From an uncultured Muribaculaceae bacterium (GTDB lineage Bacteria > Bacteroidota > Bacteroidia > Bacteroidales > Muribaculaceae): DNA of 64,000 nt. The DNA lies in assembly GCA_947176745.1 (NCBI GenBank), contig CAMWRV010000003.1, forward strand, positions 1 to 64,000. Reading direction: 5' to 3'. Shown here one piece after another: positions 1 through 10,970 of the stretch. Below the pieces are notes generated by a model. It had not been told where the DNA came from. It saw only the letters and a list, made by a program, of their open reading frames with translations, and did not search any database. The number at the start of each line of letters is the position of its first letter. Position 1 is the first letter of the stretch. A program made the translations under genes and the position numbers.

Positions 1-65
1 TAAATTTTCAGGTGTGTTGAATGACGTTTTTTGGAACATCAAACTGAACACCCTAATTTTTTAAT

Positions 66-95
66 AACTCCACCATTCGTAGGAACAGTGGAGTT
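66..95. terminator. hairpin (terminator-like) upstream of tRNA array
   Basis: aactccac/gtggagtt 8-bp stem followed by tt. Confidence 0.4.
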
Positions 96-98
96 TTC

Positions 99-172
99 CG
101 GAAGGTAGCTCAATTGGTTAGAGCATTACACTGATAATGTAAAGGTCGCTGGTTCGACTCCAGCCTTTCCGA
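99..172 (+). tRNA. tRNA-Ile(GAT)
   Basis: CGGAAGG/CTTTCCG acceptor stem, anticodon loop CTGATAA, T-arm ctggTTCGACTccag. Confidence 0.93.
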
Positions 173-264
173 CAAATGAGACGTCAAGAGAGACGCTCAG
201 CCCATAGGCAACATCGGTCAATCGACTTGAATCGCTTTTCACACATCAAGTCCTATGGGCATTT

Positions 265-346
265 GGAAGCATAGCCAAGCGGCAACGGCGCCAGACTGTA
301 AATCTGGTCTCTTCGGAGTTCGGAGGTTCGAGTCCTTCTGCTTCCA
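265..346 (+). tRNA. tRNA-Tyr(GTA)
   Basis: GGAAGCA/TGCTTCC acceptor stem, long variable arm, anticodon loop CTGTAAA. Confidence 0.93.
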
Positions 347-399
347 CGATGTCAAAGTAACGAAGTTCGCAAAGGCGGCTTGTGAAAGTCGCTGAGCAT

Positions 400-471
400 G
401 TCCCTGTCGTCTAACGGTTAGGACGCGAGATTTTCATTCTCGAAATCCGGGTTCGATTCCCGGTGGGGGTA
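400..471 (+). tRNA. tRNA-Glu(TTC)
   Basis: cgaga-TTTTCAT-tctcg anticodon arm, ccggg-TTCGATT-cccgg T-arm; acceptor stem rich in G-U pairs. Confidence 0.85.
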
Positions 472-477
472 CTATTA

Positions 478-529
478 GGACTGGTAACTCAGGGGTAGAG
501 CGTCGGTAGTTCGATTCTATCCCAGTCCG
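478..529 (+). pseudogene. tRNA remnant lacking the anticodon arm
   Basis: GGACTGG/CCAGTCC 7-bp acceptor stem, D-arm aactcaggggtagagc, T-arm ggtag-TTCGATT-ctatc; only 52 nt, no anticodon stem-loop. Confidence 0.8.
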
Positions 530-537
530 CAAATACA

Positions 538-611
538 CAAGTCGTTGGCTGAGAGGTCAGGCGATGGTCTCCAAAACCATTTTACGGAGGTTCGATTCCT
601 TCACGGCTTGC
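538..611 (+). tRNA. tRNA-Trp(CCA)
   Basis: CAAGTCG/CGGCTTG acceptor, atggt-CTCCAAA-accat anticodon arm, ggagg-TTCGATT-ccttc T-arm. Confidence 0.88.
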
Positions 612-616
612 AATAT

Positions 617-689
617 ATGGGTGTAGCTCAGTTGGTAGAGTGCTACATTTGGGATGTAGATGTCGCAGGTTCGAGCCCTGTCACCCATA
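617..689 (+). tRNA. tRNA-Pro(TGG)
   Basis: ATGGGTG/CACCCAT acceptor, ctaca-TTTGGGA-tgtag anticodon arm. Confidence 0.92.
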
Positions 690-695
690 CAACAT

Positions 696-773
696 AGCGC
701 ATTGGTCCAGTCAGGAGTGGACGTCGCCCTGTCACGGCGAAGATCACGGGTTCAAATCCCGTATGCGCTGCCA
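696..773 (+). tRNA. tRNA-Asp(GTC), CCA encoded
   Basis: AGCGCAT/ATGCGCT acceptor, tcgcc-CTGTCAC-ggcga anticodon arm, genomic CCA at 771-773. Confidence 0.92.
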
Positions 774-794
774 AACCAATAAAATCAAACAATT

Positions 795-992
795 ATGGCA
801 AATCTTCAAAAGACCTCATCAGGCGGCTTCCCGTTTCTTGCGATTCTCAGCTTGATCTTTATTACGCTCAAACTGTGCAGTGTCATTTCTTGGTCATGGT
901 GGTGGGTGCTTGTTCCAATCTGGGGTCCAGCCGCTATCGTGATAGCGATTATACTCTTCAGTCTCATTATCGGAGGTATTCTACACCGATAA
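795..992 (+). CDS. small phage membrane protein (transmembrane Fragile-X-F-like)
   Basis: 65 aa, two hydrophobic stretches, LKLCSVISWSWWWVLVPIW motif seen in small phage TM proteins; lies between tRNA genes. Confidence 0.75.
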   Translation: MANLQKTSSGGFPFLAILSLIFITLKLCSVISWSWWWVLVPIWGPAAIVIAIILFSLIIGGILHR

Positions 993-998
993 ATTTCT

Positions 999-1071
999 TG
1001 CCCTGTGGTGTCAATGGTCAGCACGTCAGATTTTGGCTCTGAAGGTTCCAGTTCGAGTCTGGATAGGGTGA
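999..1071 (+). tRNA. tRNA-Gln(TTG)
   Basis: tcaga-TTTTGGC-tctga anticodon arm; tccag-TTCGAGT-ctgga T-arm. Confidence 0.88.
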
Positions 1072-1085
1072 CTAAATTTACCAAT

Positions 1086-1439
1086 ATGAAACGAAACCTC
1101 AACATCAAAACAAAACTTGCCACATGGTTATCGAAGTGCGCTCGACGTATCGACCCACAAGGCTATCAGCATTATTCGCTTCCAAATACGCCAGAGCCAA
1201 TTCTATTCTCATCACAGGTAAAATCTGTCGAGCGAATAATGGCCCAAATCTCATATTCGCGCACTTATTTGAATAAAGCGCCTGAGCAATTTGAGGAAAA
1301 CTATATATTGCCGGAAATTGCAGAGAAAATTGCCGATGAGTTACTGAAGTATGGGTTTGTTAAGGTTGAACCAATCGATACTCCATACGAGCGCAAATGG
1401 ATTGCCACACTATATGTAGTGAAATATGATGGAATTTGA
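1086..1439 (+). CDS. hypothetical phage protein
   Basis: ORF 1005-1439; first ATG downstream of the tRNA-Gln is at 1086. Confidence 0.6.
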   Translation: MKRNLNIKTKLATWLSKCARRIDPQGYQHYSLPNTPEPILFSSQVKSVERIMAQISYSRTYLNKAPEQFEENYILPEIAEKIADELLKYGFVKVEPIDTPYERKWIATLYVVKYDGI

Positions 1440-1755
1440 ATATCTGCTAAATCTTATACATCAAGATCCCCAGTTTCAATATCTCCAATTCTTGTATGGT
1501 AAGTTTATAAGTGCGTGGGGCAAACATTGTTATATTGTTACCACTGAACATCCGGATGGCACATTCGCATTTACAGTATCATCAGACATTGCAAATAAGC
1601 TCGCTGAATTAGAAAACATGGCTTATCAACGTATGGAAGTCATAGTACGGAGAGCGATTTCTTCAGGCTATCCAAAAGATTTAGGTGAACTATTCTTAAA
1701 TGCCAGTAAACCAAGACCTCGCAAGCGATTAACTGAAAATATCTACTTGATATAA
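1426..1755 (+). CDS. hypothetical phage protein
   Basis: 109-aa ORF overlapping the end of the previous ORF, same strand. Confidence 0.6.
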   Translation: MMEFEYLLNLIHQDPQFQYLQFLYGKFISAWGKHCYIVTTEHPDGTFAFTVSSDIANKLAELENMAYQRMEVIVRRAISSGYPKDLGELFLNASKPRPRKRLTENIYLI

Positions 1756-1804
1756 ACAACTGATCTGACTATCTCATTTAACAAAATTTCAGCATGAATC
1801 GTTC

Positions 1805-2563
1805 ATGAACACAAAACTAAAACACTATGTCGGCACCAAGCATATCTTGGCAATGCCGATGACCAAGGGCGAAGCCTATCAGAAAGGTATTTGTCGCTTT
1901 CAGTTTAACGACGATCAAGAACGAGAAGCCTTCGTTCAGAGTGACGATTACAAAACACCCGGTTATAAAGTCGTTTATCAGGATGGTTACGAATCGTGGT
2001 CTCCAGCAGACGTGTTTGAAGCGGCTTATAAAGTCGCTGAAACCGCACTCGATAGAGTAAATATTGAGGATGAAGAGTTGCGAGACAGAACCGACAAACT
2101 CGGACAATTTATTTTCAATAAGAACGACGGGGCCGACTATCAGTCTCTCCCACTCGGAACACGAGCAATGCTCTTAGCTCAATTCCATGCAATGTGCTCA
2201 TACTCTGTACTCCTGTCTCTCCGTCAGAGCTGCATGGAAGGTGGCGTGGATTGCCATCCTTGTGGCCTGAGTTTTGAACAGATCCTTCCACTTCTCAAAG
2301 AGGGCTTTGCTGTTCGCCGGGCAGGTTGGAACGGCAAGGACCTGATGGTTTTCAAGCAGGTTCCAGCCCGTATTTCTGCTGAAGTGATTCCCAATATGCA
2401 GTCACTTCCCAATGAGGCCAAACGTCTGGTTCTCGCTCATGGTGATCACATCGACTATGTTTCTCAGTGCCTCATCTTCAATCCGGCATTTGGAGAAGCA
2501 AATTCATGGGCTCCGTCTATCTCAGATATTTTTGCAAATGACTGGGAGCTCGTATTGGAATAA
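1805..2563 (+). CDS. composite phage protein with C-terminal DUF2829/Tad2-like domain
   Basis: aa 155-252 LSFEQILPLLKEGFAVRRAGWNGK...SWAPSISDIFANDWELV matches the DUF2829 (Thoeris anti-defense Tad2) pattern; aa ~83-142 predicted helical hairpin; N-term GTK...PMT..EA...GYESWSPxDVFExAY. Confidence 0.8.
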   Translation: MNTKLKHYVGTKHILAMPMTKGEAYQKGICRFQFNDDQEREAFVQSDDYKTPGYKVVYQDGYESWSPADVFEAAYKVAETALDRVNIEDEELRDRTDKLGQFIFNKNDGADYQSLPLGTRAMLLAQFHAMCSYSVLLSLRQSCMEGGVDCHPCGLSFEQILPLLKEGFAVRRAGWNGKDLMVFKQVPARISAEVIPNMQSLPNEAKRLVLAHGDHIDYVSQCLIFNPAFGEANSWAPSISDIFANDWELVLE

Positions 2564-2589
2564 TCATTAAATTACTGCCATATTATCAG

Positions 2590-2623
2590 AAAAGGCCACA
2601 TGGATTCGTCTGTGTGGCCTTTT
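2590..2623 (+). terminator. intrinsic terminator
   Basis: aaaaggccaca/tgtggcctttt 11-bp stem with T tract. Confidence 0.8.
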
Positions 2624-2683
2624 TATTATTCTTTTCCACCTTTGGCTGCTCCCTTTACCTATTCTTCATAAACAGAAGATATT

Positions 2684-5293
2684 ATGGTAAAAGGATTAAA
2701 AGCGCCGACTGGCTTAACCATAGATTTTAAGCCATCCCCCAGACAATATGAAATGTGGAAACTGCTTCAACCAAATTGTTGCCCTCATTGTGGCGGTGAA
2801 ATTGAAGTAGTACAATCAGGACTTGATGAAAGAGGTAAACCAAAATATGCACCTCAGTGTAAAAAATGTAATACTCGTCACCTTCCCAGATTTATTTTGG
2901 GCGGTGGTGCTGCCGGTGGTGGCAAGGCTATATCATTAGACGATAATGTCTTAACGCCTATGGGTTTTAAGAAAATGCGCGACATTCAATTGAATGATGT
3001 TGTATCAACTCCTGATGGCGGTTTAGCACATGTTATAGCAATTCATCCTCAGGGTAAAATTCAATTATGGGAACTCACAACAAACGATGGAATATCAGTT
3101 AAATGCTGTGATGACCATATTTGGAAAGTCAATGTTCACGACAAATCTGGTGCGCATGAAGTCATTACAGATACAAAGCATTTGAGGGCATGGTTGAGCG
3201 AAGGTAGAAAAATTAGCATATCTCTAACCAAACCAGTTTATACTTCCACTAATTATGGTTCTTTCATTCATCCATATATCATTGGCTTCTTAATAGGCGA
3301 TGGTGGCTTAACTGGGAATATGACATTTACCACAGCAGACACGGAGTTAGTTGATAAAATTAAAAGCCTTGTTCCTGATGGATGTACGGTTCATAAAGTA
3401 CCATCCAGTAAATATGGATATGTAATAAAAAATAAGTACACTGATGCTAAAGGTCATCCATATTCGCCTTTCAAAAATGAAATTATTCGTTTAGGACTAA
3501 ATTGTAGTAGCCACGACAAGCGCATCCCTAAGTTTATTTTATCAGGTGAATATAGTGTAAGGCTAAGCTGCGTACAAGGATTGATGGATTCTGATGGGTA
3601 TGTTGATAAGAGGGGGCATTGTAGTTTTTCGGTGTGTAACGAAGGCTTAGCAAGAGACTTCTTGTTTTTGGTTAGAAGTCTTGGAGCAAAAGCTACAATA
3701 AACAGTGGCGTCAAGTATTGCTATTATAAAGGTGAAAAGAAATCTGCAATTGCTTATACCGTGCGATTTAATTGCGAACATAAAGCGGACTTTGTAACCT
3801 TGCATCGCAGAAAGGAAAGAATACCTGAAAAGGTAAAAGTTGCTCCAAGGTTGATAACACATATCAAGGATGCTGGTATTCAAGAGGCTCAATGTATATC
3901 TATTGACACTGACGATGGTTTGTTTATTACAAATGATTATCTACCTACACACAACTCGTATGTAGGTAGTTGCTGGATTATAATGAGCTGTATCAGGTTC
4001 CCCGGCAATCGAGCAGTTGTGGCCCGTAAAACATTGAAGGCACTGAAGGGCTCTACATTTAATACAATCAAGTTCGTTCTCAGGCAATGGGGTCTTGAAC
4101 AGGACGTTCACTACAAGATCAACAATATAGAAGGTCTTGTTACTTTCTGGAATGAGAGTACGATTTCTCTGATTGAGTTGGAAGACCTGCCTTCTGATCC
4201 TGAATTTGAGCGTCTTGGTTCTAACGAATGGTCTTGTGGGTTCATCGACGAGTGCTCTCAGGTTTCAGAAAAGGCTGTCGAAATCTTATATAGTCGCCTT
4301 CGTTGGTTGGTTCCGGAATATTGGGGTTATCCTCGATTGCTGATGACAACCAACCCATCAATGAATTGGGTCCGGTCAAGATTTGTGCAAGATAATGACG
4401 GCAACCCAGTTGTTCTGGCTCCACAAGATGAATTTGTTCGCTTTTCAGTCTTTGATAATCCATGTACGTCATTTGTGGCCACATATCGTGATGCTCTTGA
4501 CAAGCTTTCAGACCCGGCAGCTCGTCATCGCCTTCTATATGGTGTTTGGGACTGGGTAGGTGAGAATGAGGCAGCCGCTTATTGGAATTTCGAAGGTAGC
4601 ACTCATCTGGTAGATAATCTTCGAGAGAAGGTTTATGATCCGCTGAAGCCCCTGATAATCTCATGGGACTTTAACGTAGCTCCGTTCATGTCAACATTGG
4701 CCCTCCAGGTGGATTATGACAATAAAAAGCTATATGTGTTGGAAGAGGTTATCGGACGCCCGGAGGATAAGGAGAATAACACGCCCAAGCTCGCCGACAA
4801 AATCTCCAACAAATACTTAACCGAAAGCCACATGGGTGGCCTATTAGTAACAGGAGACCCAGCTGGTCTGGCCCGGTCAACACAGACTGAGGATGGCGTA
4901 AACAACTATACTATTATTCTCAATCACTTGCACCCATCTCTCAGAGCGCAAAAGAAACTGTTGACCAAGCAGCCCCCTCAGGTTACACGTCTGGAATTTA
5001 TCAACAATCTGTTCAACGGATATGATGGTTGGGAGATTCTGATAGATATGAGATGCCGACGATTAACTGAAGACCTCATATATCAAAAGAAGAATGAGGA
5101 TGGTACCAAGAATAAGGCAAAGATTACCGATCCGAAACTTGGTATGAAATATGAGAAATACGGCCACATGTCCGATGCACTGGATTACGCAATATGCTTG
5201 TTGTTATCAAATCCGTGGAAGAAATTTCAGCATATAGGCAGTAGTGGTATAGCAACTGTTAACACGCCAATATACGGCCATTTTGACTATTGA
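2684..5293 (+). CDS. terL: phage terminase large subunit, intein-containing
   Basis: Extein FILGGGAAGGGK|SYVGSCWIIM (split Walker A), CGFIDECSQV Walker B-like, ISWDFNVAP nuclease motif; intein aa 82-424. Confidence 0.93.
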   Translation: MVKGLKAPTGLTIDFKPSPRQYEMWKLLQPNCCPHCGGEIEVVQSGLDERGKPKYAPQCKKCNTRHLPRFILGGGAAGGGKAISLDDNVLTPMGFKKMRDIQLNDVVSTPDGGLAHVIAIHPQGKIQLWELTTNDGISVKCCDDHIWKVNVHDKSGAHEVITDTKHLRAWLSEGRKISISLTKPVYTSTNYGSFIHPYIIGFLIGDGGLTGNMTFTTADTELVDKIKSLVPDGCTVHKVPSSKYGYVIKNKYTDAKGHPYSPFKNEIIRLGLNCSSHDKRIPKFILSGEYSVRLSCVQGLMDSDGYVDKRGHCSFSVCNEGLARDFLFLVRSLGAKATINSGVKYCYYKGEKKSAIAYTVRFNCEHKADFVTLHRRKERIPEKVKVAPRLITHIKDAGIQEAQCISIDTDDGLFITNDYLPTHNSYVGSCWIIMSCIRFPGNRAVVARKTLKALKGSTFNTIKFVLRQWGLEQDVHYKINNIEGLVTFWNESTISLIELEDLPSDPEFERLGSNEWSCGFIDECSQVSEKAVEILYSRLRWLVPEYWGYPRLLMTTNPSMNWVRSRFVQDNDGNPVVLAPQDEFVRFSVFDNPCTSFVATYRDALDKLSDPAARHRLLYGVWDWVGENEAAAYWNFEGSTHLVDNLREKVYDPLKPLIISWDFNVAPFMSTLALQVDYDNKKLYVLEEVIGRPEDKENNTPKLADKISNKYLTESHMGGLLVTGDPAGLARSTQTEDGVNNYTIILNHLHPSLRAQKKLLTKQPPQVTRLEFINNLFNGYDGWEILIDMRCRRLTEDLIYQKKNEDGTKNKAKITDPKLGMKYEKYGHMSDALDYAICLLLSNPWKKFQHIGSSGIATVNTPIYGHFDY
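2927..3955 (+). other. intein with LAGLIDADG homing endonuclease (343 aa)
   Basis: Begins AISLDDNVLTPMG, ends YLPTHN before Ser+1; IGFLIGDGGL and VQGLMDSDGYV dodecapeptide motifs. Confidence 0.92.
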
Positions 5294-5294
5294 T

Positions 5295-6314
5295 ATGAAA
5301 CGATTTCTGAATAATAACGATTATCTTGGTATCGTCACAGAAGAAGCTCTCGAACAGCTTATTCGTGGCAACGAGATTCGTTTAGCTCAGGCTGAAGAGG
5401 CTGCGATAGAATCGGTATTGGAATATTTGTCAGAAAACTATGAAGTTGAAGCCGCACTTAAAGTCGGATATGACTTGATTCCATATAATCCGCAAATAAC
5501 ATATCCAGCGGGAGCTCATTTCTATGTGGATGGAATAATATATAGATCTACGCGAGTTATCAATGGCAGAAAGGCCCCGGCCATTGGAATATACTGGAGG
5601 GAATATGAAGAATACATTCCCTCTGAAAACGAAATTCCATTCTACACTCAACGTGGAAGTTACATGCCCGGTGATATGGTAAAGTTCAATGGCCGTATCT
5701 ATCAGTGCATGAATTATAACGGAATGGATTATAACAGTATTCGTGTTCCAGGTGTAATTTCATGGGGTGAGGTTGACACATCTGAGTGGATTGTCAACCA
5801 AACCTATCAGCCATGGGATGTAGTGCGCTTTAATGGCCGTTTTTACGCCCTTCTGAGTGCCGAAAACATCGACTGGAATACAAACCCTCATGAAAGTGAT
5901 AATTGGGGCTTGATTGGCTCGTATGACCCCGAATTGAACAACTACGAATACTCATCTAATGAGTATGTAGAATATGGAGGCGCGGTCTTCTATCCTTATA
6001 CTAATCCCAACTCGGATGAGCTTAAAGTTGGATATAATATAATAGAAGACGACCCACGCCATCCAAATCTAAAGAAACATATTTTGAGGCTTGCAGTGTA
6101 TGAGCTTCACAAGTTGATTTCCCCGACAAACATCAGCTCAACCAGAATCACCGATTACGAAACATCGATTATGTGGCTTAGAGATGCTTCTCGGCTTAGA
6201 ATCAATCCTCAGATACCTCGTAAGCTGGACGATGAGAACAAGCCTGTGGCAGATTTTGCAACTGCCACATATATGAGAGATTACGATCCCTATAAGAATC
6301 CATGGCAAATATAA
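5295..6314 (+). CDS. head-tail connector (Mu gp36/DUF1320-like) with inserted chitin-binding-like repeats
   Basis: N-term NNDYLGIVTEEALEQL...EAAIESVLEYLSENY and C-term RLAVYELHKLISPTNIS..RITDYETSIMWLRDASRLRINPQIP flank repeats of Y.PGD.V.FNGR.Y type; first ATG after terL stop is 5295. Confidence 0.65.
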   Translation: MKRFLNNNDYLGIVTEEALEQLIRGNEIRLAQAEEAAIESVLEYLSENYEVEAALKVGYDLIPYNPQITYPAGAHFYVDGIIYRSTRVINGRKAPAIGIYWREYEEYIPSENEIPFYTQRGSYMPGDMVKFNGRIYQCMNYNGMDYNSIRVPGVISWGEVDTSEWIVNQTYQPWDVVRFNGRFYALLSAENIDWNTNPHESDNWGLIGSYDPELNNYEYSSNEYVEYGGAVFYPYTNPNSDELKVGYNIIEDDPRHPNLKKHILRLAVYELHKLISPTNISSTRITDYETSIMWLRDASRLRINPQIPRKLDDENKPVADFATATYMRDYDPYKNPWQI

Positions 6315-6336
6315 TTGCCATCACAGGAAAAATGTT

Positions 6337-6369
6337 AAAACCCACCCGGACAAATGAAGGGTGGGTTTT
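6337..6369. terminator. bidirectional terminator between convergent genes
   Basis: aaaacccaccc/gggtgggtttt perfect 11-bp stem. Confidence 0.8.
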
Positions 6370-6372
6370 TCA

Positions 6373-7719
6373 TTAATATGCAGCAAGAGCATCGAGATAG
6401 TTGGTGTAATGGCGTTCGATCATTCCCACAGATGTGCCCGCCACCTTTGCCAGCATAGAAATTGGCATATCGTTGTCGATGAGGGCCTTTGTTATAGCTG
6501 TTCGTCTGAACGCATAAATAGTCAGATGGTAAGGAAGACCGAAGTAGTCACCGACTTTCCACAGAAAGCGGTTTACACGTCCTTGTGCGCGATTCTGCTG
6601 AGTGTAGTACAAGTGGTACTGTTCAGGATCTTCAAGATCCCATTTCTTGTTGTTTTGCGAGAAAGGAAGAACATACCCATGGCGAGATTTATCTTTGTAT
6701 TTGAGAATGATCTCCATAGCGCGAGGTGTAAGAAATTGTACGACAAGTGGATTAGAGTCGTGCTCGCGTGTCAGGGCGTAATTCTTTTTCTTACTTGGAA
6801 TGTAAGTGCAGGTCCATCGCCCATATTGCTTGTTGTAGGCAATGTTGTCCCATGTCAGTTTCATAACATCAATGGGGCGTGACTTCATTTCATAAAGAAG
6901 TATACAGAAATCACGATAGAGTTCCTTGTAAAAGTTGAGATGAGGTCTTCGGAGCTTAATACAGTCAAGGTCAAGATTGACAAACTGCTCGTACTGTTCC
7001 GGGCTGAGAGATTTTATTGTCCCTCCATTGCTGTTGAGATCCGACGCCTTCTCTGACAGTTTATTGACAACTGGGGCATAATCCATATATGGAAAGTTTG
7101 GAACATACTCTGTAAGTCCAGCCTTACGTGCCCTATTCACAGTTGCAATCAAGAGCTTCATTAGAGAAATATAGTTCTTGCCTGTCCCTTTCTGGCTCTT
7201 TTGATTTAAAATGAAGTCTGAGAATTGCACAAATGTGCTTCGGTTGACCTTGCATAAGGGGATTCTGATAATCCGTTTTTCTTTCACCAACTTGCTCTGA
7301 AGCGTCTGATAGGTCATATAGTTGGATGAGGGCTTACGTCTGGTGGGGTTTTTCAGTTCCTCTATGACCTGCTCAAGAAATTTCCCAAGAGTCATTTCTT
7401 TCTGTTCTTCGATAAGAGCCTGTTCTATTCTTTCTTTTTCCGAAAGATCATACTTGGCGAACAATTCTTTACCAGATTCAAACTGATGCTCATTAAGCAG
7501 TTGTTCAAATGGAGCGAGATAGTCGAGAAGTCGGGTATTGTTCTGTAGATCACTCTCAGAGCTGGAAACGAACATCTGGACTTTGGGATTCCACTTCGAA
7601 AAATTAGGATTTTTTAACACATTCACCACCTTATAGTGGCGAACCTGAGTGCCCTTTACGTGGGCGCAGAGACAGAACTTGCCGTCTTTTTTAGTAAATT
7701 TTAACGAAATTTTGGACAT
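6373..7719 (-). CDS. tyrosine recombinase/phage integrase
   Basis: YEMKSRPIDVMKLTWDN...YAFRRTAITKALIDN...MLAKVAGTSVGMIERHYTNY; start at MSKISLKF. Confidence 0.9.
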   Translation of the reverse strand: MSKISLKFTKKDGKFCLCAHVKGTQVRHYKVVNVLKNPNFSKWNPKVQMFVSSSESDLQNNTRLLDYLAPFEQLLNEHQFESGKELFAKYDLSEKERIEQALIEEQKEMTLGKFLEQVIEELKNPTRRKPSSNYMTYQTLQSKLVKEKRIIRIPLCKVNRSTFVQFSDFILNQKSQKGTGKNYISLMKLLIATVNRARKAGLTEYVPNFPYMDYAPVVNKLSEKASDLNSNGGTIKSLSPEQYEQFVNLDLDCIKLRRPHLNFYKELYRDFCILLYEMKSRPIDVMKLTWDNIAYNKQYGRWTCTYIPSKKKNYALTREHDSNPLVVQFLTPRAMEIILKYKDKSRHGYVLPFSQNNKKWDLEDPEQYHLYYTQQNRAQGRVNRFLWKVGDYFGLPYHLTIYAFRRTAITKALIDNDMPISMLAKVAGTSVGMIERHYTNYLDALAAY

Positions 7720-7876
7720 AATGTTGAGATTTACGGTCCAATGGATTTCGATTATGGCCGGACTGCACAATTTACTGCACATCATTTACGCCATCGTGCG
7801 AGAAACAGGGTTTGCGTCGAGTGACCATATAGTAGACATCGACTGCAATTCGCTGTTACTCACTCAGATATAAAAA

Positions 7877-7907
7877 TAAAAGTGAGGGGTCAAATTCCTC
7901 ACTTTTA
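7877..7907. terminator. hairpin between integrase and tRNA-Gln
   Basis: taaaagtgagg/cctcactttta 11-bp perfect stem. Confidence 0.65.
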
Positions 7908-7910
7908 TCA

Positions 7911-7983
7911 GTTGCCTTGGAAAGACTCGAACTCTCACAAACGGAACCAGAATCCGGTGTGCTACCATTACACCACAAGGCAA
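7911..7983 (-). tRNA. tRNA-Gln(CTG), probable prophage attachment site
   Basis: Reverse complement TTGCCTT...ccgga-TTCTGGT-tccg...AAGGCAA-C. Confidence 0.9.
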
Positions 7984-8134
7984 TTTAAAACTGAATCTCT
8001 TTTCAGTGTCTTAGGTTGTTCCCTTTTGACACTGCAAAATTAGTGCTTTTATTTGAATCCACCAAATTTTTCAACAAAAAAAATTCAACTATTTTTTGAT
8101 TTTTAATTTGCCAAAGTGCGCTGTAATTGTATTA

Positions 8135-9493
8135 TTATTCTGTAGATGAGGAGTTTGAATATCTTTTGGATCGGATAAGATTTATGTCGCCACCTTTTTT
8201 ATATCTGGTGCCGTCTGCCCCTTTTGCTTCTATTACGTAGAAATAGACGCCTGGCTTGACATATTTTCCTTTGTATTTGCCGTCCCAGCCCTGCGTCGGA
8301 TCCTTGAAATGGAACAGTTCGTTGCCGTAGCGGTCAAAGATCGTGCAACTGAATTCAAGAAGAGAACGATATGCGACTTTCCACACGTCGTTGACGCCAT
8401 CTTCATTCGGAGTGAACGCATTCGGAATACGCAGATCCGATGAACCTATGCCTACTGTATAGGTCTCCCCTGCCGTTTCACATGATCCGTCGGCATTGCT
8501 GCCCACAAAGCGGACATAATACGTTCCTTCTTCTGTGAATGTATAGTCGAGGTTCTGCTCATTAAAACGATAGTCTATGTGCTCGAAATCCTGATCACTC
8601 GCGATCTGCCATTCATTATGGATCACGGCGTCTGTCGTAAAAGCCCTGAAACTGATGTCGGCCGGTGCGGAACCTCCGATTCCCTGTGTTTCCGTCTTTA
8701 TCATGTTTGAGGGGTCTGCATTGGGGTCATCATCATCCGGCAGGTTTGTCTGCTCGGCTGTAGTGCGCACATCAAGTCCGTTTGCATATACAAGTTCCGA
8801 CTCGACATGTTGCTCCATACCCCAGGCCTTGAGAAACCGGTCGCCGTAAATGGAGAATGTCGAATTGCAATAAAGGGGTGGAGAAATCACTATGGGATTG
8901 GATATGTGGACTACTGTTTTTGTGATCCGCTCCTGAATGAACGACTCTGACTGTTCATCCCACCCAAGATTGAGGTAATCGATGTCGATCTCTCTTGAAA
9001 GTTCGCATTGACGTCCGTCGATTGAATAATAGTAGACCGGTTCGCCAGAACCGACAATATCTATACGTGTGTTTTCACATTCCTGTTCTTCAGAAGCATG
9101 CGCCGAAGAGATTGCAAGCCGGTAGTGAAGATAATCCACGAGCCAGATACACACCGTGCGGCCATCAGCCTCGAAGATATAACCGGTGTCGCCCGCAGGA
9201 GATGCGATGACAACGTTGCCGTCGCTCAGAGAATAGTCTACAGGCACAGCATATCCGCCTCCGAGATTACTGTATTTTGAAACTCCGGAGACATTTCCTG
9301 CACCGGAGACGATCATTTCCTGAATCTGAGACGCATCATAGGCGACATACACTGACTCCAGCCCGGAGTTGCGGTCAGGAGTGAACGACAGAACCTCCTG
9401 GCTCACCCCCCTGAACGAGACATCAAGTGCGTGAACGGCAGATGCAGAAGACAAAAGGCAGACCGCCAATCCTAAATTTCTTAATTTGCACAT
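8135..9493 (-). CDS. secreted protein with T9SS type B (gliding motility) sorting domain
   Basis: C-term IPNAFTPNEDGVNDVWKV...FDRYGNELFHFKDPTQGWDGKYKGKYVKPGVYFYVIEAKGADG; signal peptide. Confidence 0.85.
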   Translation of the reverse strand: MCKLRNLGLAVCLLSSASAVHALDVSFRGVSQEVLSFTPDRNSGLESVYVAYDASQIQEMIVSGAGNVSGVSKYSNLGGGYAVPVDYSLSDGNVVIASPAGDTGYIFEADGRTVCIWLVDYLHYRLAISSAHASEEQECENTRIDIVGSGEPVYYYSIDGRQCELSREIDIDYLNLGWDEQSESFIQERITKTVVHISNPIVISPPLYCNSTFSIYGDRFLKAWGMEQHVESELVYANGLDVRTTAEQTNLPDDDDPNADPSNMIKTETQGIGGSAPADISFRAFTTDAVIHNEWQIASDQDFEHIDYRFNEQNLDYTFTEEGTYYVRFVGSNADGSCETAGETYTVGIGSSDLRIPNAFTPNEDGVNDVWKVAYRSLLEFSCTIFDRYGNELFHFKDPTQGWDGKYKGKYVKPGVYFYVIEAKGADGTRYKKGGDINLIRSKRYSNSSSTE

Positions 9494-9572
9494 AACTTAT
9501 AAACGACTTGCGTTTGCTCTAAAGTATATGTGTCATTCAATTCACAAGTAAGTGTTGCTTTTTCCTGATCTC

Positions 9573-10970
9573 TCATTCCGAGTCTGACGGCCATGGAAAA
9601 CCGGTAGGATTGACAGTAAGATGAATAGCCTTCTGCCCCAGTCTGACTTTAATATAGTCTGTCAGTTTCTTGCGTTCTCCTGAAGTGAGCCCTTTCGGAG
9701 CGTTTACGAATATCATGCTTATGGTGTCGGTCTGCGAATGCGTGACCGACGACGCCACCATCCTCGACAATGCGAGATCCTTTACCGATGGGAAGAGCAC
9801 TTTGACTTCCGGAGATATGCGTACACTTTCGTCAGAAAACTGATTGTGGGCCGATAATACATTACGAAGAGAATCGATTGTCATCTGCCTGCGGCCGATC
9901 TCCGCCTGCATAAGCTGATAGAACTTGTCGGCATTGGCTTCATCATTCAGATCTGTTTTGGTCAGGGCGAATCCCTGCTTGATATCAAGCACAGTCCCGC
10001 CCAGTCCTACGGAATCAAGTTTGTTCATCATGGCAAGCTGAAGCGAATCTTTTGGCAACGCCTCCCCTATCAGAGTGACGTCTATGAATCTCTTCCCTCC
10101 TTTCATATATTCTTCATGCGACAGAACCTGTGTGTTGGGAAATACCATCTCGTTCTTGACAAATGCCGAAGCCTTGTCAAGAAATATATTTCTGTTTATC
10201 ATTATTACTGTCAGATACACACTTACACCAATGGTCAGTCCGACCACCGTAAAAGCGACAGCCCGCATTCTGCGTGCTCTTTTCTCGTTCTGATAGACCA
10301 CCTTTTTGAATCCCATCAGCTTCACCCCTATCCATGTGGCGAAAAATATGAAGATCATATTTGTCAGGAACAAATAGAGCGCGCCCAGAAAGAAGTGAAG
10401 CTGCAATGTGGCTATTCCATAGCCTGCTGTACACAATGGGGGCATCAGCGATGTGGCTATGGCCACACCCGGCATGACCTGTCCCTTATTTTTTGCGGCA
10501 ATACTCAGTATTCCGGCCGCTCCGCCGAACAAAGCGACAAACACATCGTATATGGAAGGTGACGTGCGCGCAAGCAGCTGACTGGCACCTTCATACTGCG
10601 GCGAAATCAGAAAATAAAGCGCCGACGTGGCCAAAGAACCGACCACGGCGGCAGTCACGTTCTTCAGGCTTCTCTTTACAAGCGTGAAGTCCTGGACGCC
10701 AATGCCGAGTCCCATCCCTATTATGGGCCCCATGAGAGGCGAGATAAGCATGGCTCCTATTATGACGGGAATGCTGTTGGTGTTGAGTCCGAGCGACGCG
10801 ATGAATATGGCGAATATCAGAGTCAGCAACTGACTTCCTTTGAAAGATACTCCGGATCTGATGCTCGTCTCGATATCTGTCTGCGACTCTATGTCATCCT
10901 TCACGTTGAAGTATGACAAAAGATCCTGCCACGACTGCCGGATATGTCTTTTTGTGGTATTATTCTCCAT
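9573..10970 (-). CDS. DUF389 domain-containing membrane protein
   Basis: SIPVIIGAMLISPLMGPIIGMGLGIG motif and multiple TM segments. Confidence 0.85.
   Translation of the reverse strand: MENNTTKRHIRQSWQDLLSYFNVKDDIESQTDIETSIRSGVSFKGSQLLTLIFAIFIASLGLNTNSIPVIIGAMLISPLMGPIIGMGLGIGVQDFTLVKRSLKNVTAAVVGSLATSALYFLISPQYEGASQLLARTSPSIYDVFVALFGGAAGILSIAAKNKGQVMPGVAIATSLMPPLCTAGYGIATLQLHFFLGALYLFLTNMIFIFFATWIGVKLMGFKKVVYQNEKRARRMRAVAFTVVGLTIGVSVYLTVIMINRNIFLDKASAFVKNEMVFPNTQVLSHEEYMKGGKRFIDVTLIGEALPKDSLQLAMMNKLDSVGLGGTVLDIKQGFALTKTDLNDEANADKFYQLMQAEIGRRQMTIDSLRNVLSAHNQFSDESVRISPEVKVLFPSVKDLALSRMVASSVTHSQTDTISMIFVNAPKGLTSGERKKLTDYIKVRLGQKAIHLTVNPTGFPWPSDSE

Follow-up and report, generated by a model that had tools for sequence, protein, structure and literature searches.

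In the portion of Kelley et al. (2016; PMC5050341) drawn on here, the inteins described in the large terminase subunit (TerL) of mycobacteriophages include TerL1-a, which sits at the P-loop Lys↓Thr (the arrow marks an insertion point) and is called a classic P-loop insertion, as well as W-C-T class 3 inteins at the c and e sites. By 2020, 1701 class 3 inteins had been catalogued, with LAGLIDADG motifs in 82.5% of them (PMC7891396). The mechanism of class 3 splicing has been published (PMC3196547, PMC7664689, PMC7891396, PMC6195587), and the DnaB inteins Msm DnaBi1 and MchDnaB1 (6bs8, 6rix; PMC6195587, PMC7664689) possess the same W-C-T set and the same splicing fold as the intein described below. 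Here, we analyse a prophage-borne TerL gene near the start of a 64,000-nucleotide stretch of DNA (the window). We conclude with high confidence that the Walker A motif of this Bacteroidales prophage TerL is split between its Lys and its Ser by a cis-splicing class 3 intein, which also carries a LAGLIDADG homing endonuclease.

Results

The open reading frame at 2684–5293 (forward strand) codes for an 869-aa TerL precursor of the Terminase_3 / PBSX type (Pfam Terminase_3, E 1.1e-7; assigned by PHROG as terminase large subunit). The first 81 residues (N-extein, 2684–2926, forward strand) are collinear with intein-less TerLs and end with the Walker A sequence GGGAAGGGK. The C-extein of 445 residues (3956–5290, forward strand) starts with Ser+1, the Walker A serine. 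The 343-aa intein with its homing endonuclease lies between them in frame (2927–3955, forward strand; residues 82–424), as delimited by alignments, empty alleles and a structural model. The precursor thus reads ...FILGGGAAGGGK↓AISLDDNVLTP ... NDYLPTHN↓SYVGSCW..., where the intein begins after the FILGGGAAGGGK junction with the stretch AISLDDNVLTPMGFKKM, and its edge codons are GCT (2927–2929) and AAC (3953–3955). This insert is absent from homologous genes, ends with His-Asn, and is followed by a nucleophilic +1 residue, Ser. The original prediction of a 343-aa intein at 2927–3955 with GCT as first codon, interrupting the terminase P-loop as GGGAAGGGK↓S with Ser at +1, is exact to the base according to the reading frame, the DNA and the empty alleles, and intein-less TerLs are uninterrupted at this position. 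The TerL N-terminus (2780–2878) also contains a zinc-ribbon-like CPHCG...CKKC element with a weak Lar-family match, which is common to the intein-less relatives.

The contig starts within a prophage (window 1–8000). This region contains seven tRNA genes (99–1072, forward strand), an integrase gene (6373–7785, reverse strand) and a tRNA-Gln gene (7911–7982, reverse strand). The gene order TerL, a protein of about 340 residues (340 aa in the window) and integrase recurs in related prophages, several of which also contain a tRNA gene past the integrase: Pro in L119, Phe in L121 and Lys in L005. The tRNA-Gln gene at 7911–7982 is likely the attachment site of the prophage. The contig L033 (see below) and the relatives at family level point to a Muribaculaceae-like host.

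A search for intein-less TerL alleles in relatives, which had been proposed as a check, found them in prophages and viral contigs with 50–71% identity, at the protein and at the DNA level. Without the intein, the TerL is 526 aa long and can be aligned over its entire length with eight TerLs of IMG/VR contigs that contain no intein (61–71% identity). A further intein-less TerL with 71% identity occurs on a Muribaculaceae contig (L033). Excluding the genome that contains the window, 7 of 397 family genomes code for a TerL of 50–71% identity in open frames of 516–571 aa, which are too short to accommodate a 343-aa intein. The DNA was also compared with an intein-less prophage from the same bacterial genus (L119), the TerL of which is 71% identical. 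In nucleotide BLAST, window positions 2685–2926 match 8599–8840 and positions 3961–5525 match 8846–10450 of this prophage. The match breaks at window position 2926 and restarts at 3961, and only 5 bases separate both matches in the intein-less copy. From these boundaries we can derive that the window contains exactly 1029 extra base pairs. The DNA of this empty site reads GGTGGCAAG↓AGT. Empty-site DNA was collected from eight loci, in one of which (L120) the Lys codon is followed by a Thr codon and not by a Ser codon. Since phage inteins match the insert over nearly its full length, and since the 526-aa remainder is collinear with intein-less TerLs, the insert is not a chance occurrence.

In GenBank, 782 phage records match the intein. 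For 721 of these the match spans 80% or more of the intein; the best identity is 34%, and E values reach down to 9e-47. From viral loci and phage records, we aligned 75 distinct full-length inteins; because these 75 were gathered with class 3-like sequences and a class 3-like profile, which also placed their ends, the counts given below describe this group and do not represent an unbiased survey. The diagnostic motifs of the window intein are CCDDHIWKV (His64 and Trp66), EAQCISIDTDDGLFIT (Cys323) and THN (Thr341-His342-Asn343). The block B residues His64 (B:10) and Trp66 (B:12) are encoded at 3116–3124 (forward strand). The histidine is invariant in the 75 relatives, and position B:12 is Trp in 72, Phe in two and Asn in one. 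Cys323 (F:4; 3893–3895, forward strand), the predicted first nucleophile, aligns with the corresponding Cys of 6bs8 and is conserved in 75/75 relatives, as are all three residues of Thr341-His342-Asn343 (G:5 to G:7; 3947–3955, forward strand). The first residue of the intein is Ala, so that, with the boundary set by the empty alleles, Cys, Ser and Thr are absent from A:1. Among the relatives, 50 start with Ala and only two with Cys. The +1 position is occupied by Thr in 43 relatives and by Ser in 32, the residue preceding the intein is Lys in 71, and 71/75 contain a K↓S/T junction. Two inteins with Phe at B:12, from near relatives of this TerL with the same intein site (L043:462–1493 and L045:3001–4014), retain Cys F:4 and Thr G:5 and contain a Trp three residues further on (HLFDCW). 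Even the closest inteins share only about 36–40% identity with that of the window, and hence the inferred activity rests on the conserved residues.

When only the splicing halves were compared with PDB sequences, Msm DnaBi1 (6bs8) aligned from the first to the last residue, pairing Ala1, the block B His and Trp, the block F Cys and Thr-His-Asn. The full intein matched gp41-1 and PI-SceI. The alignments to this crystallised class 3 intein and to the 75 relatives substantiate the features on which the class 3 proposal had been based, namely an initial Ala in place of Cys or Ser, and a Trp, a Cys and a Thr inside blocks B, F and G, which the alignments place at B:12, F:4 and G:5, respectively. 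The Pfam Intein_splicing profile gave no score on this intein, which we do not count against the assignment because both the fold and the set of class 3 homologues are unambiguous.

Six class 1 inteins served as comparators (L018, L020, L132, L133, L134 and L054, the last a ribonucleotide-reductase-like intein). All six begin with Cys, and four do not contain Cys at F:4. In a quick tree with weakly supported deep branches, the six class 1 rows require one change (support 50), and the window intein is placed among the class 3 rows within a weakly supported cluster of 18 rows (SH-aLRT 84) that are mostly inserted at TerL-like GGxxGGGK↓S/T sites. One comparator, the class 1 intein in the helicase of Escherichia phage Sciku (L132; Cys1, no Cys F:4), is inserted in a P-loop at GSGK↓T, a type of site that the class 3 relatives use as well.

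An AlphaFold2 model of the intein (63 sequences; pLDDT 96.5, pTM 0.92) is predicted to contain a HINT fold that superimposes on 6bs8 with Z 20.1 and an rmsd of 1.5 Å over 123 residues (VIA-align). According to this model and the 6bs8 alignment, the splicing domain consists of an N-terminal half with Ala1 and blocks A and B (2927 to approximately 3241, forward strand) and a C-terminal part with blocks F and G (approximately 3827 to 3955, forward strand). Compared over the whole intein, PI-SceI scores Z 28.7 over 335 residues. Among structures that contain only a splicing domain, the class 3 inteins 6bs8 (20.1) and MchDnaB1 (19.8) score highest, followed by the class 1 inteins Prp8 (19.1) and gp41-1 (18.8), a near tie that leaves the class unset by fold alone. 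Together, sequence and predicted fold support reading this intein as class 3.

The homing endonuclease domain occupies approximately 3242–3826 (forward strand; Pfam LAGLIDADG_3, E 2.4e-7; Hom_end, E 1.6e-6; PI-SceI match of the whole intein). It contains two LAGLIDADG motifs (GFLIGDG and GLMDSDG) with their acidic residues: YIIGFLIGDG (3275–3304, forward strand) with Asp125, which is Asp in 67/75 relatives, and VQGLMDSDG (3572–3598, forward strand) with Asp223, which is Asp in 71/75. Lys198 (3518–3520, forward strand; Lys in 70/75), located before the second motif, is presumably the block D lysine. The endonuclease is apparently intact as judged from its sequence. Because Asp125, Asp223 and Lys198 are retained, homing into intein-less TerL genes seems plausible.

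Discussion

If the intein follows the published class 3 pathway, Cys323 would attack the Lys-Ala1 bond, so that the N-extein is held as a block F thioester. Transesterification would pass the N-extein from Cys323 to Ser+1, Asn343 would cyclise with the aid of His342, and an O-N shift would rebuild GGGK-S to give the active ATPase. The freed intein could then cut TerL genes that contain no intein, and spread through homing. This chemistry is the most likely course. Since the junction lies inside the Walker A motif, unspliced TerL presumably has no ATPase activity and would require self-removal of the intein to work as an enzyme.

An initial Ala would also be compatible with a class 2-like intein, a class that has no N-terminal nucleophile (PMC3196547), in which Ser+1 itself attacks the N-terminal junction and the block F Cys has no role in splicing. 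This scenario is highly unlikely: the W-C-T set in the window intein is complete, Cys F:4 and Thr G:5 do not vary among the relatives, and KlbA was the only protein in which class 2 was known at the time of PMC3196547. Even less probable, to the point of being negligible, is a class 1 intein with a start that we misplaced by one or more residues and that truly begins with Ser or Cys. A serine does occur near the start (Ser3 in AISLDD), but the empty alleles set the ends at GGGK↓...↓S, Ala1 pairs with residue 1 of 6bs8, and 50 of the 75 relatives likewise start with Ala.

It is also conceivable that the intein has recently decayed, like that of Arthrobacter Arth_1007, so that the residues persist in a dead prophage while splicing has been lost. 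Class 3 pseudo-inteins are indeed known (PMC3196547), and the phage in question is known as a prophage from a genome assembly, with only one end on the contig. We nevertheless consider decay very unlikely, because the reading frame is uninterrupted, every splicing residue and the two LAGLIDADG acids are preserved, whereas the known pseudogene has lost Cys F:4, and both exteins of TerL are complete and collinear with their relatives.

Block B of this intein contains adjacent cysteines at B:6 and B:7 (Cys60 and Cys61) near the splicing active site. Position B:7 is Cys in 28, Gly in 18, Asp in 15 and Thr in nine of the 75 relatives. As a speculation to which we assign little likelihood, Cys60 or Cys61 might form a reversible disulfide with Cys323, by which oxygen could block splicing of the terminase and so control DNA packaging in a phage with an anaerobic host. 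The Cys48-Cys118 disulfide in Msm DnaBi1 provides a parallel.

The window intein is an ordinary addition to a known theme, since TerL inteins in the P-loop and class 3 inteins in TerL have already been published and are common in phages. The idea that no class 3 intein precedes it in phages of Bacteroidales was rejected, because such inteins occur in Parabacteroides phage PF672P1 and in Bacteroides phage BF486P1. Both (L127 and L128) are annotated merely as hypothetical proteins. Bacterial genomes of the order seldom contain a full-length relative: a search of 397 family genomes and 393 order genomes found none outside the window's own genome, and the weaker matches were partial, two of them (L018 and L020) being class 1. 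The significance of this case is limited: a prophage family of Bacteroidales, the other TerLs of which were seen without an intein, gains a complete class 3 intein. The resulting natural pair of intein-plus and intein-less alleles could be used to test splicing and homing in gut phages.

The same arrangement exists in other phages, mostly without annotation. The PF672P1 intein (L127, OP172819.1) shares class 3 features and the GGGK↓S/T site with the window intein; in this case the likeness is judged by the P-loop-like site. Eight inteins from viral contigs (L010, L012, L014, L043, L045, L048, L053 and L056) also combine class 3 features with GGGK↓S/T insertion. Together with L127 they are about 28–40% identical to the window intein and belong to the same 18-row cluster. 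Acinetobacter phage TaPaz (L034, MZ043613.1) has an annotated intein-containing TerL with class 3 features and a GSGK↓T site; its intein is 32% identical to that of the window, and the TerL exteins are barely similar (25% over 154 aa). The host proteins of the relatives are often not recognisably similar beyond the intein, and the recurrence of K↓S/T junctions in such dissimilar proteins fits the published preference of inteins for P-loops. Like the window intein, mycobacteriophage TerL1-a is inserted in a phage TerL after the invariant P-loop Lys. Site a differs by its +1 Thr, in place of Ser, and by its mycobacterial hosts (PMC5050341); the likeness of the two is one of position. Msm DnaBi1 shares Ala1, P-loop insertion and Ser+1 with the window intein. 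In contrast to the TerL intein, Msm DnaBi1 and MchDnaB1 reside in the DnaB helicase, and Msm DnaBi1 has no homing endonuclease and an Asp at B:7 (PMC6195587), where the window intein contains an endonuclease domain and a Cys.
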